NCBI GenBank assembly: GCA_944380635.1
Contig: CALWID010000016.1
Location: forward strand, 1-55,056
DNA from: an uncultured Eubacterium sp.
GTDB lineage: Bacteria > Bacillota > Clostridia > Oscillospirales > Acutalibacteraceae
DNA length: 55,056 bases
Reading direction: 5' to 3'
A model generated the notes under the pieces. That model saw only the letters and a list, made by a program, of their open reading frames with translations. It had not been told where the DNA came from and did not search any database. How positions within the stretch are numbered: the stretch's first letter is position 1; each line of letters begins with the position of its first letter. The position numbers were made by a program, and so were the translations under genes. Positions 32,505 to 39,849 of this stretch are shown in pieces.

Positions 32505-33462
32505 ATGTTTTCTGAAACAAAAATCAAGTTAAGAAAAAGCATCGTCAACAATGAAAAATTTCAAGTGTTTGGTCAGATAATGCCCAAAAACTCATTTTAT
32601 ATGCATATACAACAAACAATATCGAAGAGAAAATCGGAAAAATACAGAGTATCCCACAGCGCATTAGCCAAATGGATAAAACAGTATTCAGAAATCAAGG
32701 TGGATGGCGAAACAGTGGTTACGGCAGAGCAAATAAAAGCACTGCAAAAGCGAAACGCACAGTTGGAGGAGGAAAATTTAATATTAAAAAAAGCGATTGC
32801 AATATTCACTCCACACTCAGACAAAGATTAACAGCAGTAAAACTTTTATCATCTTATCATGCAATAACTACATTATGCCGTGTTTTGAGAGTAAACAGAA
32901 GCACATATTATGAATATATAAATCATAAGCCGTCCAAGCGAGAAAAAGAAAATCAGTATATCCGCAGCTGCATATTAGAAATATACGCAAAAACCGATAA
33001 ACGTTTGGGCGCCCACAAAATTGCCATTTGTCTTAAGAGAGACTATTGCATAAACATCAGCGACGGCAGAGTGTACCGTCTTATGAAAACAATGAATCTT
33101 CCTAAAATGAGCACTGTTAAACCGCCTAAGCATAAGGAATCAAATTCCGAAAACGGTGTATGCAAAAATATTCTTAAACAGAATTTCAATCAGTCAAAAC
33201 CTAATCTCGTATGGGTATGTGATTTTACATATATCAGAGTAGGCGCAAAATTTTATTATCTGTGTGCGATTATGGATTTGTATGCAAGAAAAATTATTGC
33301 TTACAAGGTTTCAAACAAAATCGACGGTTTTAATTTTCTCTAAACGAAGTGCAATTAAGCCTTTTCAAATACATTAATGGCTTTTACAATTCTTTAAGAC
33401 CTCATTCTCATAACAACGGCTTGTCTCCAAATCAGGCTGAACTTTATTTCTTTAATCGTTAG
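32505..33462 (+). pseudogene. IS3-family (IS150-like) transposase, internally deleted
   Basis: OrfA (32505-32831, AAGGGGGAG ribosome site) ends in the leucine-zipper type NAQLEEENLILKKAIAI. A7 at 32786-32792 is the expected -1 frameshift site into OrfB. OrfB reads on through KLLSSYHAITTLCRVL and VNRSTYYEYINHKPSKRE, then the first two catalytic Asp (WVCDFTYI, AIMDLYARKIIAY), and stops at 33343. From 33334 another frame resumes with FSLNEVQLSLFKYINGFYN to 33462, the normal C-terminus. About 60-70 residues with the third catalytic acid (Glu) are missing, so the element is dead. A right-end-like TGTCTGAACCATAG (minus strand) ends at 33502. I could not find the left end. Confidence 0.88.
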
Positions 33463-33502: not shown

Positions 33503-34192
33503 CCTATATGTTGAGTGCGATAATGTTTTTATTTCATTGTTTCCTTTCTTATTCATCATTTTTTAAATCTTCTCGTTTTTAGTAACACGGCTGCCAAACC
33601 GTTCCTATTATACAGTAAGGCTTTTGACAATGCTCTAAGCTTGCATCAATCTTGCCAGTTCCATTTTTACTAAAACTTTTTATTTCCCCGGTAGAAACGT
33701 GGGTTTTTTCTTTGCTGAAGAAAAAATAAAGAAACTGACTCCACTTTAAAAACAAAATCAGTTTGTTTCTTAATTTTAATATTCTATCCTTTTGAAACAT
33801 TTTTGTGCTGTTTGCACAGTTTAGGTTGGTTCAATTTTCCCTATTTAGGTTTCATTTTAATATATTATACTTATTTCTATATTTATTTCTATATTTAGTT
33901 TTTGGCAGTTATATTGTACGGCAAAGTCAAACAACATATATTCACTGGTCATATAACTGATACAATATAAATTAAACCGCATTTATATGCCGATAGAATA
34001 TAGATTAATTTTTTCGTATATGCTAGAATTAAGTAAATTGCAAATTTAGAAAATGATAAAAAATTTGCATTTTTGCAATTTGCAATGGAAAGTTAATGCA
34101 GTTATCAAATTAATCCTGATAAAAGCCGAACATAATTTTACACCGAAAAGCATTTATCAATAATGTACATTGCATTCAAACAAGGAGGAAAA
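33503..34192. other. Gene-free AT-rich stretch between IS remnant and TPR gene
   Basis: Very AT-rich, with short repeats such as TTTCTATATTTA (near 33875-33900) and several TTTGCA/TGCAAA words near 34040-34085. A minus-strand open frame at 33579-33800 has no ribosome site and no recognisable features. It must contain the promoter of the TPR gene. No RNA gene recognised. Confidence 0.5.
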
Positions 34193-35236
34193 ATGGAAAA
34201 ACAATTTGAAGAAATATATGATCAAGTTTTTGATTTGATTGACAATGGCAGAACGGCAGAAGCTATGAGCATAGCACAAAAATTGGTTGATTCTAATATG
34301 TCTAATGAAGCAGCATGGTTTGCATATGCATGTGCAAAAAAAGCATGGGGCGACATGGCTCTAGCCGTTAAAGGATTTGAACAATCAGTGGCAATCAACA
34401 AAGAATATGTACCGGGGTATATTGGGCTGTCTTGGTGTTATGGCGAAAAAGGGGACTCGGATTTAGCACTTAAAAGCGCTCAAAAAGCATTAGAAATTGC
34501 TCCGAATAATACCAGCGCTATGGATTGTGTAGTTAGATCTATTTTTGATTTAGAAGGCATAGATAGCGCCATTGATAAATGTTCAGGTTACGTAAATATT
34601 TCTGATGGAGATATTGGGTTGAAAAATTTGCTGGGGAATCTTTATATCAGAAAAGCATTAATGTATGTCGTGGATGTTCCTGATGATTTCAAAGATCCGG
34701 GGTGTGATACAACTCCAGGATTTATTTCTTTTGAAGATATTCAAGACGCAAGAGAATGTTGTAACAAAGCAAAATCCTTATTAACACCGGATTGTAAAGA
34801 GGATTTGGAAACAGCCGAAAATATACTTAAAGCTTGTGATGAAGATTGTGAGCTTGCACCTTGCCACAAAACAATTTATACCATTTTTAATGCAATAATT
34901 GTGTTTCTTTTTTACACACTTATTACATTGATTTGGGGTGCCCCTCTCGGTATTATCGCCGCAATTTTCACTATAAAAGCCGACAAATTTCCTATATATA
35001 TGTATAATTATGTTTGGTGCACCGGTTCTGATGATCCTTTAAAATATGTAAGCGACTCGTTTTATTCAAATCACGAAGTTTTAAAATCTATGGCCGATGG
35101 TGCAAAAGAAGGCTGGGAAAGTTCTGGCGGATTTGGTGATTCGATCGGTGGAAATCTTTTAAAAGACCAATTTTGGTATTTCAAGGCGAGAATACAGTTT
35201 TATAAACGTTTGTTAAAAGGCAAAAAAAACAAATAG
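34193..35236 (+). CDS. TPR protein with C-terminal membrane segment
   Basis: 347 residues from ATG 34193, which has AAGGAGG 5 bases upstream; ATG 34163 lies before that site and is not the start. Residues of about 1-130 hold TPR-like helix pairs (AEAMSIAQKLVDSNMSNEAAWFAYACA, and SDLALKSAQKALEIAPNNTSA with the classic ALEIAPNN ending). A hydrophobic hairpin follows at about 233-265 (IFNAIIVFLFYTLITLIWGAPLGIIAAIF), then a charged tail. AT-rich like the rest of the island. It lies 205 bases before the first radical SAM gene, with no shared transcript evident. Function unknown; an accessory role in the peptide system is only possible. Confidence 0.75.
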   Translation: MEKQFEEIYDQVFDLIDNGRTAEAMSIAQKLVDSNMSNEAAWFAYACAKKAWGDMALAVKGFEQSVAINKEYVPGYIGLSWCYGEKGDSDLALKSAQKALEIAPNNTSAMDCVVRSIFDLEGIDSAIDKCSGYVNISDGDIGLKNLLGNLYIRKALMYVVDVPDDFKDPGCDTTPGFISFEDIQDARECCNKAKSLLTPDCKEDLETAENILKACDEDCELAPCHKTIYTIFNAIIVFLFYTLITLIWGAPLGIIAAIFTIKADKFPIYMYNYVWCTGSDDPLKYVSDSFYSNHEVLKSMADGAKEGWESSGGFGDSIGGNLLKDQFWYFKARIQFYKRLLKGKKNK

Positions 35237-35441: not shown

Positions 35442-36707
35442 ATGAATAATTTGAAAAAATCCGTGTTTAATTTTACATATAAAAGATCCGAGGGAGAAAA
35501 TGTTATTTATAACACTTTCAGTAAAGGTCTTGTTGTTCTTGGCGATGTTGAATTTGAGCAATATGAAAATTTATGCATTGAAGATGAAGAAATAATCAAT
35601 GGATTAGTAGATAATGGAATGTTAATAAAAAAGGAATATAACGAAATGGCATTCCTTAAATATTTTCATTACAAAACCAAATTTGCGAAGGATGCATTGT
35701 TTTTAACTATCGCCCCGACTCTCGACTGCAATTTTGGTTGTCCATACTGCTACGAAAACAGAAGACACGGAAAAATGAGCGTAAAAGTACAGGATGCAAT
35801 TATTGAATTCATTGCCGAAACTGTAAATCAGGGTGCCACGACACTTAATATTACATGGTATGGTGGAGAACCTCTTCTTTATTTTTCAATCGTAGAGAAG
35901 ATGTCCGAAAAAATTGTAGAAATAGCCAAAGCTAATGGTTGCAAATTGGTTATGGACATGGTAACAAACGGATATCTTTTAACAGAAGAAATTGTTGAGC
36001 GTTTGGATGAACTTGGAATAATCAAGGTTCAAATAACATTAGACGGCATGCAGAAAAATCACGACAAGAGAAGGCATCTATTAAATGGTGGCGCGACCTT
36101 TGATAAGATTGTTGCAAACCTGAAGTTGTTTGACGATTCTCCGATTGCTGTTTTAATTAGAATGAATGTTGATAACGAAAACTACAAGGATTTCGGCAAA
36201 CTCAAAGCTTTAGTTGCCGAGCTTAAAAACTCAAATGTTAAGGTATATGCTTCTCCTGTTGAGGATATTAATAAGGATAAGGAAAACTCCGTAAGCGAAT
36301 TCATGTCTAACGAAGAGTTTGATGAATTTACCATTAATGCTACCAAGGGCGGGGATTTGTCTGAAGATGAATTTTCTGTTATGGATGACAGATATTGCTT
36401 TTGTACAGCAGAAACCGAAAATTGTTATGTGGTTGATGAAAAGGGCAATTTCTATAAATGTTGGGATGAGGTAGGAAGAACAGAATATCGTTGTTTTAAC
36501 ATTCTTGATGATGAAACCTATAATTATTTCCAAATAGCAAAATTTGTTGCAAATGATCCGTTTTCTGATGAAAAATGTGCTAATTGTGTATTTCTGCCTA
36601 TTTGTTTTGGCGGTTGTCAATTTCAAAAAGCACATTTAATTAAATCACCATGCGGATTTACCGAAAAAACAATGATTAACTTCATTGAAAATACATTTTT
36701 TAAATAA
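35442..36707 (+). CDS. Radical SAM/SPASM peptide maturase (module A)
   Basis: 421 residues. An N-terminal region of about 85 residues (VIYNTFSKGLVVL and so on) resembles the short wing-like leader regions of SPASM peptide maturases. The [4Fe-4S]-SAM motif is Cys96/Cys100/Cys103 in DCNFGCPYC. WYGGEPLL is the SAM-binding Gly motif, and QITLDGMQKNHDKRR is typical of SPASM enzymes. C-terminal SPASM cysteines lie in YCFCTAETENC, NFYKC, CANCVFLPICFGGC and SPCGF. Such enzymes form thioether or other radical cross-links in small peptides. The next gene, 20 bases on, is a 36-residue peptide with five Cys, the obvious substrate. AAGGAAAG precedes the ATG. Codon use is AT-rich, unlike the flanking core genes. 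Confidence 0.9.
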   Translation: MNNLKKSVFNFTYKRSEGENVIYNTFSKGLVVLGDVEFEQYENLCIEDEEIINGLVDNGMLIKKEYNEMAFLKYFHYKTKFAKDALFLTIAPTLDCNFGCPYCYENRRHGKMSVKVQDAIIEFIAETVNQGATTLNITWYGGEPLLYFSIVEKMSEKIVEIAKANGCKLVMDMVTNGYLLTEEIVERLDELGIIKVQITLDGMQKNHDKRRHLLNGGATFDKIVANLKLFDDSPIAVLIRMNVDNENYKDFGKLKALVAELKNSNVKVYASPVEDINKDKENSVSEFMSNEEFDEFTINATKGGDLSEDEFSVMDDRYCFCTAETENCYVVDEKGNFYKCWDEVGRTEYRCFNILDDETYNYFQIAKFVANDPFSDEKCANCVFLPICFGGCQFQKAHLIKSPCGFTEKTMINFIENTFFK

Positions 36708-36726
36708 GTGAAAGGAAGTGAAAAGT

Positions 36727-36837
36727 ATGAAGGTAATCCAGAAGGCTAAGACTACTCCTTCGTCTTACAGCAAGAAAAGAGCCACTTGTATGAGCTGCTT
36801 AGCAACATGCAAACAGTGTCCTCCAAAGACTTGCTAA
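36727..36837 (+). CDS. 36-aa Cys-rich RiPP precursor candidate (module A)
   Basis: AAAGGAAGTG precedes ATG 36727. The product has a basic, Cys-free N-terminal half (residues 1-20, four of the first 18 being Lys plus Arg18 nearby) and a C-terminal core with five Cys at 21, 24, 28, 31 and 36, spaced CxxC, xxx, CxxC, xxxx, C-terminal Cys. The core also has Thr and two Pro. This leader/core split, directly behind a SPASM radical SAM enzyme and ahead of ATP-grasp and methyltransferase genes, is what a ribosomally made, post-translationally modified peptide precursor looks like. The general design is shared by clostridial Cys-rich rSAM peptides (SCIFF, CLI_3235-like, FibroRumin types), but the sequence matches none that I recall. 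Gene call is inference from context. Confidence 0.75.
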   Translation: MKVIQKAKTTPSSYSKKRATCMSCLATCKQCPPKTC

Positions 36838-36865
36838 TTTTATAAGGAGAAGAGGCGAGTTTATC

Positions 36866-37816
36866 TTGCCTCTTGTTTATATTGATATGTTTTGTTTTGT
36901 TAAAGAAGACTTTGAGGATATAGCACATGACAATTCTCTTTATATACAAGCGGAATTTTCTAAAGCGCTAAATAACTTTTGTTTACTTGATTTGAAGAAG
37001 CAAAAAATATTTGATAAAAATGGAAATGTGTTTTTCCCAAATATGTCTGTTATGCTTAGAACGACCTGCACAAATGTGGAAAAGGCTTTATATACATTGC
37101 ATTTACTTGGTGTTCTAACAATAGAAAAATCAAATGATATTGATAAAATTGAAAGTTGGTTTAGATTTTATCAGCCAAAACGAACTATTAATGAAATTTC
37201 TGCAAAGTCAATTTTTGATATTAAACTTCCGGATAGTGAAAAAATTTTTATTAAGTCAAAGAAAAAAGGATTTACTTTGATTACTGAAAAAGAAAAAATA
37301 ATTAACAAAAACAACGAACTTGTTAATTTTATTGAAGAAAAATGCAAAGATGATGAACTTTTAATCTCCAAATTTGTAAAAATAAAAAGAGATTCTTTAG
37401 GAACAAAGGAATCTAGACATATCGTATTAAATGGAAAGTTAGTTAATTCATCGAGATATTTTTATTGCTTAAGGCATAATGTTCCGATATCACAAATTAA
37501 AGCCGCCAATATTATTATAGATAAATTATCGACGATTGTTGACTTTCCTAAAAATTATGCTTTAGATATTGGCGAATTTGTAGAAGATGGGAATAAATAT
37601 ATTGATGTTGTAGAAATAAATCCGTTAAGTACTTCTATATGTTATGTTAACAACAGTATTTTTGAAAACAGCGATTACGATTTTAAATACAACAATATAT
37701 ATGGCTTTGGTAATGAGTTTTTTTACGATTTTCTAGCAAATCCGGGAAATTATGTTCTTGACAGGACTTTTGGCGTTAATTATGAATATATAAATGAAAA
37801 TAGATTTGAAATATAG
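36866..37816 (+). CDS. ATP-grasp enzyme of the CDC123/R2K-like clade (module A)
   Basis: 316 residues from TTG 36866, preferred because GAGG (36852-36855) is 10 bases upstream; the first ATG (36887) has no ribosome site. The N-terminal 120 residues are a variable substrate-side domain. The C-terminal half has the R2K/DUF4343 pattern: FIKSKKKG near 128-135, RHIVLNGKLVNSSRY at 184-198, LDIGEFVEDGNKYIDVVEINP at 233-253, where the ExN pair (Glu250, Asn252) should hold Mg-ATP. Such enzymes activate a carboxylate and join it to an amine or similar group. Beside a peptide precursor it probably modifies side chains or the C-terminus, or adds an amino acid. The reaction is unknown. Confidence 0.75.
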   Translation: MPLVYIDMFCFVKEDFEDIAHDNSLYIQAEFSKALNNFCLLDLKKQKIFDKNGNVFFPNMSVMLRTTCTNVEKALYTLHLLGVLTIEKSNDIDKIESWFRFYQPKRTINEISAKSIFDIKLPDSEKIFIKSKKKGFTLITEKEKIINKNNELVNFIEEKCKDDELLISKFVKIKRDSLGTKESRHIVLNGKLVNSSRYFYCLRHNVPISQIKAANIIIDKLSTIVDFPKNYALDIGEFVEDGNKYIDVVEINPLSTSICYVNNSIFENSDYDFKYNNIYGFGNEFFYDFLANPGNYVLDRTFGVNYEYINENRFEI

Positions 37817-37819
37817 ATT

Positions 37820-38458
37820 ATGAAAAATCAACTAAAAACTACATTTTCTTCAATGATAAAAAGAGGCCATTATTTGTACTATTTTTACAATTGGATGTAT
37901 ACTCTTGTTGAAGATTATAAAATAGCAAATATGAGAATGGATAAAACCGTTTTTAACGAATATAGCGATGCTTATCCGTCACAAAGTATCAGTTACTTTT
38001 ACCTAAAAGAATTTGTTAATAAAGTGGATTTTAATTCAAAAGATGTTTTTGTTGATGTCGGATCTGCTTGGGGCAGAATGATTGGATATCTTAAGCGGCA
38101 TACAGACATCGGTAAATTTATAGGCGTTGAGCTTAATCAGGAAATTGCCAAATTATCAAAAAGTATTTTTCAAGATGATGTTAATGTGGAAATAATATCT
38201 GGAGATATAGTTGAAAATATACCTGAAAACGCAACAGTATTTTATTTGTTCAATCCTTTTAACAATGTTGTGTTAGAGAATTTTCTTGATGCAGTAGAAA
38301 ATAGAATCGATCATTCTGTTAGAATTTTGTATTTATATCCTACTTGTAAATCGGTGTTTGATAATAGATTTGAAAAATTTAAATTAATTAATAAATATAA
38401 GCTAAAACCAAAATATATGGGAGAATTAGAATTATTAGAATATTACTATGTACTATAA
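37820..38458 (+). CDS. Class I SAM-dependent methyltransferase (module A)
   Basis: 212 residues. Motif I is VFVDVGSAWGRM at residues 76-87, with the acidic end of strand 2 at Glu104 (FIGVEL). Strand 3/4 residues follow (IISGDIVENI), and the catalytic-loop motif YLFNPFN is at 142-148. The start lies 3 bases after the ATP-grasp stop, so the two are one translational unit. The NPF loop fits an N-, O- or carboxyl-methyltransferase; the acceptor is presumably the module A peptide. Carboxyl methylation would combine logically with an ATP-grasp step, but that is inference. Confidence 0.8.
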   Translation: MKNQLKTTFSSMIKRGHYLYYFYNWMYTLVEDYKIANMRMDKTVFNEYSDAYPSQSISYFYLKEFVNKVDFNSKDVFVDVGSAWGRMIGYLKRHTDIGKFIGVELNQEIAKLSKSIFQDDVNVEIISGDIVENIPENATVFYLFNPFNNVVLENFLDAVENRIDHSVRILYLYPTCKSVFDNRFEKFKLINKYKLKPKYMGELELLEYYYVL

Positions 38459-38531: not shown

Positions 38532-38560
38532 TTGACATTTACTTATTTATTTTATATAAT
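38532..38560 (+). promoter_or_regulatory. Consensus sigma-A promoter of module B
   Basis: TTGACA (38532-38537), 17 bases, TATAAT (38555-38560). Both boxes and the spacing are perfect. Expected start near 38567, giving a short leader with AAGGAG before the precursor ATG. A promoter this strong suits a precursor peptide needed in excess. Confidence 0.9.
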
Positions 38561-38599: not shown

Positions 38600-38755
38600 A
38601 TGAAAACATTAAGCGAAATACAAGCAATGGGAATAACAAAAGTTACATTGAGATGTGGACGTAATATGGCATCAGCATCAAATTATTCGGCTAGTGACGA
38701 TTGTGGAAGTTGTGAAAATAATACTAGCAATCAGACAGAAGCTACTTGTTGTTAA
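38600..38755 (+). CDS. 51-aa Cys-containing RiPP precursor candidate (module B)
   Basis: ATG 38600 has AAGGAG 9 bases upstream (a TTG at 38570 is in frame but precedes that site). Residues 1-18 form a leader-like segment (MKTLSEIQAMGITKVTLR). The rest is a small-residue, Ser/Asn/Thr-rich core with Cys at 19, 35, 38, 50 and 51: one early Cys, a CGSC pair and a terminal CC. No similarity to the module A peptide beyond Cys content. The stop overlaps the start of a radical SAM gene by one base (TAATG), so peptide and enzyme are translationally coupled. Substrate status is inferred from context. Confidence 0.75.
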   Translation: MKTLSEIQAMGITKVTLRCGRNMASASNYSASDDCGSCENNTSNQTEATCC

Positions 38756-39849
38756 TGCTTAATCTTATTGAAAGACGGATTAATAATTTTCATTACTTTG
38801 TTGATCCATCAACTCCATCGGATATATTTTTTGACAATAAAATATTGCAATGGTTAACTGAGAATGATTGTGATCTATCAATATCGAGTTTATCAGATTA
38901 TATAAAAGAACATTCACCTTCTTATATGCCAATTTTGCTAACTTGGGATATGACAAGTAGGTGCAATTTTAATTGTCCGTTCTGCTATATAAGAGATAAC
39001 AGTATTGCTAATGAGGTAACTTTTGCTGAAGCGAAGCCCGTTATTGACGAATTGGTCAACAACGGGCTATTTGAAGTGTATCTTTCCGGCGGAGAATGTA
39101 CACTGTTGGATGATTTTGTGCTAATATATAAATATTTAAAATTAAAAGGCGTATTTGTTACTGTATTTACAAATGCTTCTTTGATTAACGATAATATTTT
39201 GGATTGCTGGAGAGAACTACCACCAAGTAGTGTTGAGATAACTCTTTACAATGATGATTTAGAGTCTGCACCATTTATAAATATAATAAAGTTACATAAT
39301 ATGGGTATATATGTTTTACCAAAATTTACGCTTACCAAAACAACATTAAAATATTTTGCAAAAGTAAGTAAATGGGCAAAGAATAATGGGTTTTTCCTTG
39401 CTGTTGATACTGAACTTTTCGATGGTACAGATGAATTACATTCAAACATTGCAGAAAATTATTCATTAAGCGTTGAACAAAAGAAAATATATGCTCCAGA
39501 CAGAGTAAATGTTACTAAATCAGCGGTTGGTGTGCGAAAAGGATTTTCTTGCAAATCTAAAAAAGGTACTATTCAAATTTCTCCAGATTTTTCTATTTCG
39601 TTATGTAATAAAATGAAAACACGCTGGGATTTGAGAAATTGTAATGTTATTACAGCTTTAAATGAATTAAGAGAAATAATAAAAAAATATGAAGATGCGC
39701 CATTATATGGTTGCAAAGGTTGTGCATATACGGCTAAATGCTCAATGTGTTATGCCAATGCAGAAATCTTTAATGGAGAATTGCATGTTCCCAAAGGTTA
39801 CTGTGAAGATTTGAAAAAAAGGTGCGAAATGTTTATACATAATAAGTAG
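38755..39849 (+). CDS. Radical SAM/SPASM peptide maturase (module B)
   Basis: 364 residues from ATG 38755; an in-frame TTG at 38746 would overlap the precursor more and has no ribosome site. An N-terminal segment of about 60 residues may bind the leader. The cluster motif is Cys70/Cys74/Cys77 (SRCNFNCPFC), with LSGGECTLLDDF as the Gly motif. The C-terminal SPASM-like cysteines lie in FSCKSKKG, SISLCNKM, CKGCAYTAKCSMC, GYCEDLKKRC. It is clearly diverged from the module A enzyme. It probably cross-links the Cys of the 51-residue peptide. No transporter, protease or immunity gene follows before the transposase remnant. Confidence 0.88.
   Translation: MLNLIERRINNFHYFVDPSTPSDIFFDNKILQWLTENDCDLSISSLSDYIKEHSPSYMPILLTWDMTSRCNFNCPFCYIRDNSIANEVTFAEAKPVIDELVNNGLFEVYLSGGECTLLDDFVLIYKYLKLKGVFVTVFTNASLINDNILDCWRELPPSSVEITLYNDDLESAPFINIIKLHNMGIYVLPKFTLTKTTLKYFAKVSKWAKNNGFFLAVDTELFDGTDELHSNIAENYSLSVEQKKIYAPDRVNVTKSAVGVRKGFSCKSKKGTIQISPDFSISLCNKMKTRWDLRNCNVITALNELREIIKKYEDAPLYGCKGCAYTAKCSMCYANAEIFNGELHVPKGYCEDLKKRCEMFIHNK

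Follow-up and report, generated by a model that had tools for sequence, protein, structure and literature searches.

A candidate three-gene RiPP unit combining a radical SAM/SPASM maturase, a cysteine-rich precursor peptide and an R2K-clade ATP-grasp enzyme in an uncultured Eubacterium sp.

In this study, a 55,056-nucleotide stretch of DNA from an uncultured Eubacterium sp. (contig CALWID010000016.1, assembly GCA_944380635.1; hereafter, the window) was analysed with a focus on the module at 35442-38458, in which four + strand open reading frames (ORFs) are separated by gaps of 19, 28 and 3 bases. We propose, with a probability of roughly 0.68, that a maturase, a precursor peptide and an R2K-clade ligase form a three-gene unit for a ribosomally synthesised and post-translationally modified peptide (RiPP), to which a methyltransferase has been added in the window. 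A linked, conserved precursor and its modifying enzymes were found in all three intact loci recovered. A preliminary description of the window had outlined a RiPP pathway of four genes. The packing that it gave was recovered exactly from the ORF list, and its domain labels for the three enzymes were upheld by hidden Markov model (HMM) profile scores (Radical_SAM PF04055, R2K_2 PF18299 and a DOT1-type methyltransferase). The conserved set and the R2K match lend partial support to the pathway that it outlined, and membership of the methyltransferase in the defining set was not supported. The features of the module are as follows:

35442..36707, + strand: radical S-adenosylmethionine (SAM)/SPASM peptide maturase, 421 amino acids (aa), assigned from profile matches, identity to two other loci and a tree
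36727..36837, + strand: precursor peptide, 36 aa, MKVIQKAKTTPSSYSKKRATCMSCLATCKQCPPKTC, containing neither Asp nor Glu, assigned from conservation in three loci
36850..36874, + strand: RNA hairpin of 10 pairs between the peptide and R2K genes, assigned from a shuffle folding test
36866..37816, + strand: R2K-clade ATP-grasp enzyme, 316 aa from TTG or 309 aa from the alternative start ATG 36887, assigned from a profile and catalytic columns
37820..38458, + strand: class I SAM-dependent methyltransferase, 212 aa, probably accessory, assigned from weak profile hits and a low-confidence model

The set gives the R2K enzyme group a concrete candidate substrate. Here a bacterial R2K protein (309 to 316 aa) is accompanied by a single 36-aa peptide, which makes the ligase prediction testable with three genes, and a precursor without acidic residues narrows the possible reactions before any experiment.

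Conservation of the gene set

The R2K protein was sought in sets of 60, 394, 391, 32, 300 and 300 genomes, corresponding to 1,477 genome searches with overlaps counted; the window's own genome was included in four of the six. The set is rare, as three intact copies were obtained in total, namely, that of the window and those of two genomes found among 300, G1079 (locus L033) and G1019 (locus L034), both of which belong to another family (f14) of the same order. The order maturase, peptide, R2K gene is the same in G1079 and G1019. Identity to the window was 54% and 45% for the maturase and 34% and 30% for the R2K protein in G1079 and G1019, respectively. The small frame, the conservation of which had been suggested as a check, is kept beside homologous enzymes in both other intact loci.

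The methyltransferase behaves differently. A tblastn search (E up to 0.05) detected no relative in the G1079 or G1019 locus, and inspection by eye showed no different methyltransferase frame next to the R2K gene in G1079. Because no relative was detected in the other two loci, the conserved unit looks like three genes. In G1019 a neighbour was possibly lost, since the genome is 76% complete and 1.5 kb separates the R2K gene from the end of its contig. The methyltransferase scored 25.7 bits against the DOT1-type profile (cut-off 23); its model had a predicted local distance difference test (pLDDT) score of 51.1, and a fold search was consistent with a class I methyltransferase. No solved relative was found by sequence, and the plasmid search returned one distant place, which shares 23% identity (E 3e-8), lies in a Nonomuraea record and has no annotated feature.

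Precursor peptide

The small ORF at 36718-36837 encodes 39 aa from a GTG and 36 aa from ATG 36727. The latter is most likely the precursor start; AAAGGAAG is located upstream at the usual distance of a ribosome site, and a ribosome-site-like sequence precedes the peptide gene in each of the three loci. Cysteines occupy positions 21, 24, 28, 31 and 36, and residues 1-20 are Cys-free with six Lys/Arg, in agreement with the basic half and five-Cys half described previously. Among 20,000 random 158-base stretches generated from a first-order model of the module, six contained an ATG-initiated ORF of at least 30 aa with at least five Cys.

Sequence comparison indicates that the three precursor peptides are related. 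Identity to the window peptide was 76% (G1079) and 36% (G1019) by alignment, and 62.5% and 34% by BLAST. None of 5000 shuffled peptides matched the observed score for any of the three pairs, and of the ORFs of at least 25 aa (216 in G1079, 87 in G1019), the peptide adjoining the maturase was in each case the one that matched the window peptide best. The first ten residues are identical between G1079 and the window, and the outline M-x-x-I-x-K-A plus C-x3-C-K-x-C-P-P is kept in G1019. The latter motif occurs in all three peptides and the longer C-x2-C-x3-C-K-x-C-P-P in two; Lys 6 and Lys 29 are invariant throughout. Acidic residues number none in the window precursor, two in G1079 (D18 and D24) and five in G1019.

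Up to E 1, the window peptide matched neither a Pfam nor an NCBIfam model, and the G1079 and G1019 peptides matched no NCBIfam precursor family (Clo7bot, SCIFF and others) at E up to 0.1, in searches by which short peptides can be missed. In plasmids, a single chance match to the peptide was returned (E 9), and viral contigs contained no exact match to one DNA pattern of the peptide.

R2K-clade ATP-grasp enzyme

The window protein scored 27.1 bits against R2K_2 (PF18299), barely over the cut-off of 26.2, and the G1019 protein exceeded the cut-offs of both R2K_2 (32.1 bits) and R2K_3 (35.3 bits). K130, E182, R184, D234, E250 and N252 are invariant in four of four R2K rows, one of which is a fragment, and K134 and G135 are kept in the three intact rows. 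The R2K clade is characterised by two conserved lysines in the RAGNYA domain together with ExR and ExN motifs (PMC4431377). By our own reading, K130 and K134 would be the two lysines, E182-x-R184 the ExR motif and E250-x-N252 the ExN motif. The enzyme is probably active, because these catalytic columns are invariant. The profile search that had been proposed for the 316-aa protein thus gave an HMM match to R2K ATP-grasp, with the catalytic columns retained. Comparison with homologues suggests that the start may be ATG 36887 (residue 8). No NCBIfam match was found for the window protein at E up to 1 or for the G1079 and G1019 proteins at 0.1.

The text consulted of the paper that defined the clade places it among ATP-grasp enzymes forming peptide-like links, with peptide ligase activity predicted in 2015, and gives contexts of type VI secretion, phage, acetyltransferase and ADP-ribosylglycohydrolase (PMC4431377); the term radical SAM has no occurrence in that paper. 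The R2K enzymes include the eukaryotic translation factor CDC123, which has been reported to be an ATPase and to act as an assembly factor, and understanding of its enzymatic activity was called limited in 2025 (PMC12860950). No literature linking R2K enzymes with RiPPs was present among the matches listed for open-licence papers.

Radical SAM/SPASM maturase

The maturase scored 79.5 bits against Radical_SAM PF04055 (cut-off 29.5) and has the cluster site CNFGCPYC. A C-x2-C-x5-C-x3-C arrangement near the C terminus, found by eye, presumably represents the SPASM pattern. The best NCBIfam models were TIGR04463 (257.9 bits), Clo7bot (256.2 bits) and CefB (215.0 bits), each reached at less than half of the cut-off. 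The values for G1079 and G1019 were likewise below the cut-offs of TIGR04463 (250.2 and 219.9 bits vs 525) and of the Clo7bot maturase (244.2 and 228.1 bits vs 600). For the SCIFF maturase (cut-off 425), the window enzyme scored 87.1 bits and the other two 69.9 and 81.7 bits. In the comparison with known families proposed earlier, the peptide matched no precursor family and the maturase stayed below the TIGR04463, Clo7bot and SCIFF cut-offs. Judged by these profiles, its closest curated counterparts are maturases of Cys-rich peptides. Among solved chains, 5wgg comes nearest (7.9e-13); we take it to be the SCIFF maturase CteB.

A tree was built from 15 enzymes, comprising those of the three loci, four other genomes, seven of 36 plasmid records and the genome's own SCIFF-like enzyme. 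The maturases of the three loci formed a clade with 100/100 support on a stem of 1.02. With seven of the 12 inner branches open and long-branch flags on five end branches, the tree does not place the nearest kin of this clade. Relatives in plasmids amounted to 36 records, each below 60% identity, and no ATP-grasp enzyme was listed in the feature tables of the seven that were opened. Viral contigs contained no maturase relative. Searches around G1079 and G1019 (149 genomes each) returned the query genomes alone at a limit of E 1e-60, which leaves out weaker kin.

Resemblance to known systems is partial. With Clo7bot, TIGR04463 and CefB the maturase shares homology over most of its length (215 to 258 bits) and an adjoining short Cys-rich precursor, but its scores are less than half of the curated cut-offs. 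A Clo7bot locus on a Paraclostridium plasmid differs from the window set in containing seven precursors and ATP-binding cassette (ABC) transporters, with no ATP-grasp enzyme listed. Likeness to Clo7bot leaders was weak (68 to 1870 of 5000 shuffles scored equally in six comparisons, covering two of four typed leaders) and was not used as evidence. As in SCIFF systems, a SPASM maturase adjoins a small Cys-rich peptide, but the maturase score is far from the SCIFF cut-off and by eye no ATP-grasp gene is located beside the genome's own SCIFF-like pair. This peptide and maturase pair was seen by eye on another contig of the window genome (G000:C30, L020 5051-6649). The ATP-grasp protein resembles R2K-clade enzymes (CDC123, R2K.2 and R2K.3) in profile match and catalytic columns. 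Graspetide branch 5 loci of Bacteroides likewise combine ATP-grasp and SPASM enzymes with precursors, some of which have conserved Cys; their ATP-grasp enzymes belong to another family and link Thr/Ser to Asp/Glu, residues of which the window precursor has neither acidic one (PMC8939145).

The preliminary description knew of no described class with this exact set. SPASM enzymes or methyltransferases beside ATP-grasp enzymes were already known from graspetide loci in the part of that literature covered here (PMC8939145), but with other ATP-grasp families; the R2K clade is the new component.

Proposed pathway and alternative explanations

The enzyme families are supported, and gene order, conservation, motifs and the hairpin were observed directly; each chemical step, co-transcription and the role of the product are inferred. 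The basic N-terminal part of the precursor would serve as leader, and the SPASM enzyme would install thioether or related radical cross-links from the core Cys. The R2K enzyme would activate a carboxylate with ATP and form an amide on the peptide, and the methyltransferase, where present, would methylate the product. Graspetide enzymes link the side chain of Asp or Glu to Ser, Thr or Lys, which agrees with the consulted text of PMC8939145; such a linkage inside the window peptide is excluded, because the precursor has neither residue. For the same reason, any action of R2K on this precursor would have to use the C-terminal carboxylate or one supplied from outside. The C-terminal carboxylate is the preferred site because it is the sole carboxylate common to the three precursors, and R2K would most likely couple it to an amino acid or an amine. 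That R2K is a dedicated ligase by which a ribosomal peptide with radical cross-links is extended or capped at its C terminus, and that a RiPP class may be founded on this chemistry, is nevertheless a tentative proposal with the odds against it. If true, this would, to our knowledge, define a substrate for a bacterial R2K enzyme for the first time.

Several observations weigh against the proposed unit or its C-terminal step. Only three intact loci are available. The G1079 R2K protein is below the Pfam cut-offs (18.6 bits vs 26.2, and 18.4 bits), and R2K is the least conserved of the three genes in both comparisons. The AlphaFold model of R2K had a pLDDT of 37.3, too low for a fold search, and was not used, and the R2K profile matched no solved structure. 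The window R2K protein also matches phrog_7313, a phage family with no assigned function, at 36.5 bits; R2K need not act on a RiPP, because the clade has such phage-type members. The C-terminal residues are MKD in G1019 vs KTC, which weakens the C-terminal step. Terminator-like sites numbered one vs 2.0 expected from shuffles, and promoter-like sites 29 vs 30.3. No transporter was evident beside the three genes when three flanking proteins and FeoB in the window and five upstream proteins in G1079 were scanned.

Among the alternatives, R2K may attach an outside carboxylate, either an amino acid or a small acid, to a peptide amine (K6, K29 or the N terminus). The invariance of both lysines in all three peptides and the placement of the clade among enzymes forming peptide-like links (in the consulted text of PMC4431377) would fit this scheme, but nothing marks which partner is activated, and we regard it as doubtful.

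The peptide could instead be a small metal- or cluster-binding protein, in which Pro follows four to five spaced Cys; the enzymes would then serve to mature or modify a metal site. The Cys motifs shared by two and by all three peptides are compatible with this, as is the lack of an evident export gene among the neighbours that were scanned. Yet the Cys spacing differs from that of ferredoxins, and the maturase is closest to RiPP maturases; such a role appears improbable. Quite unlikely as well is that R2K makes no bond and instead serves the peptide or the maturase as an ATPase or ATP-dependent chaperone; CDC123 offers a precedent in the parts of PMC12860950 consulted, but the ligase-type ExR and ExN columns are intact. 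A graspetide-like cyclase, with R2K making side-chain lactam or ester rings in the precursor beside the SPASM cross-links, is very unlikely. In its favour, the available text of PMC8939145 describes loci that combine ATP-grasp and SPASM enzymes with precursors containing Cys, and the G1079 and G1019 precursors have Asp/Glu; against it, the ring is impossible in the window precursor and R2K has no NCBIfam match at E up to 1.

Hairpin between the peptide and R2K genes

All three loci have a hairpin of 10 to 12 pairs, differing in sequence, between the peptide stop and R2K start. In the shuffle test, 0, 0 and 1 of 200 sequences folded equally well (z -4.8, -3.3 and -3.1). The gaps before the peptide were unremarkable, as 157 and 49 of 200 shuffles folded equally well and the 19-base gap of the window has no fold. 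The G1019 stretch (102 bases, to the ATG suggested by homologues) contains further stems. The window hairpin covers TTG 36866, and R2K homologues start near ATG 36887. A plain terminator was rejected, because no T run follows the hairpin in G1079 and G1019. The hairpin may shield the messenger upstream of it or restrain expression of R2K, and it may keep precursor messenger in excess over enzyme messenger.

Other R2K relatives

The 60-genome search included 36 further genomes from the genus of the window, and none of them gave an R2K match. A first scan of genome contigs gave no match, and a second gave one broken remnant in Faecalibacterium prausnitzii. Neither the window nor the G1019 protein had a match in plasmids or phages, the G739 protein had none in plasmids, and viral contigs contained no R2K relative. 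Three further relatives were located:

L018 7093-7566, - strand: broken C-terminal R2K remnant in genome G377
L029 6001-6564, + strand: broken C-terminal R2K remnant in a Faecalibacterium prausnitzii record
L017 6005-7087, - strand: stand-alone R2K-like protein of 360 aa in the more distant genome G739, E 7.8e-7, 23% identical to that of the window

The two remnants are 41% and 38% identical, nearer than the intact relatives, and adjoin what looks by eye like an oligopeptide ABC transporter operon. No tblastn trace of the maturase or peptide was detected in the 12 to 13 kb around them. Within the genus of G377, comprising 32 genomes, G377 alone had a match. The R2K gene was probably once more widespread. 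The G739 protein was not counted as a copy, as neither peptide, radical SAM nor RiPP gene was seen alongside, and a weak hit in G358 (E 9.6e-4, inside an 876-aa frame) was also set aside.

Genomic setting

The region from approximately 32.0 to 40.4 kb has 26 to 35% guanine plus cytosine (G+C) in 1-kb windows vs 39 to 48% on either side. Within it are transposase-like frames (32505-33343), the module and a second pair, made up of a small peptide gene and a radical SAM gene. The three enzyme genes of the module have a third-position G+C of 0.20 to 0.30, compared with 0.47 in a pnp-like gene; the peptide gene is off this trend at 0.49. The module was likely acquired by transfer. By eye, the low-G+C stretch lies directly before two genes resembling rpsO and pnp.

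Upstream of the maturase, a TPR membrane protein (34163-35236) was considered as a member of the unit and rejected. The TPR gene upstream in G1079 shares 29% identity with it over 86 residues (E 0.002), and the corresponding position in G1019 has RelA- and RecJ-like genes by eye. A metallopeptidase-like frame in G1079 (L033 4265-5203, by eye), beyond a polymerase-like gene, was not assigned to the unit.

This second pair (38600-39849, + strand) is probably a separate unit, in which the frame of a 51-aa peptide with a C-terminal CC runs into the beginning of the frame for a radical SAM enzyme of 367 aa. This enzyme was below every NCBIfam cut-off among the 25 families listed. The pair is preceded at 38532-38560 by a 12/12 match to the TTGACA-17-TATAAT promoter consensus, although promoter-like sites in the region were about as numerous as in shuffles (29 vs 30.3). 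These features place the pair apart from the three-gene set.

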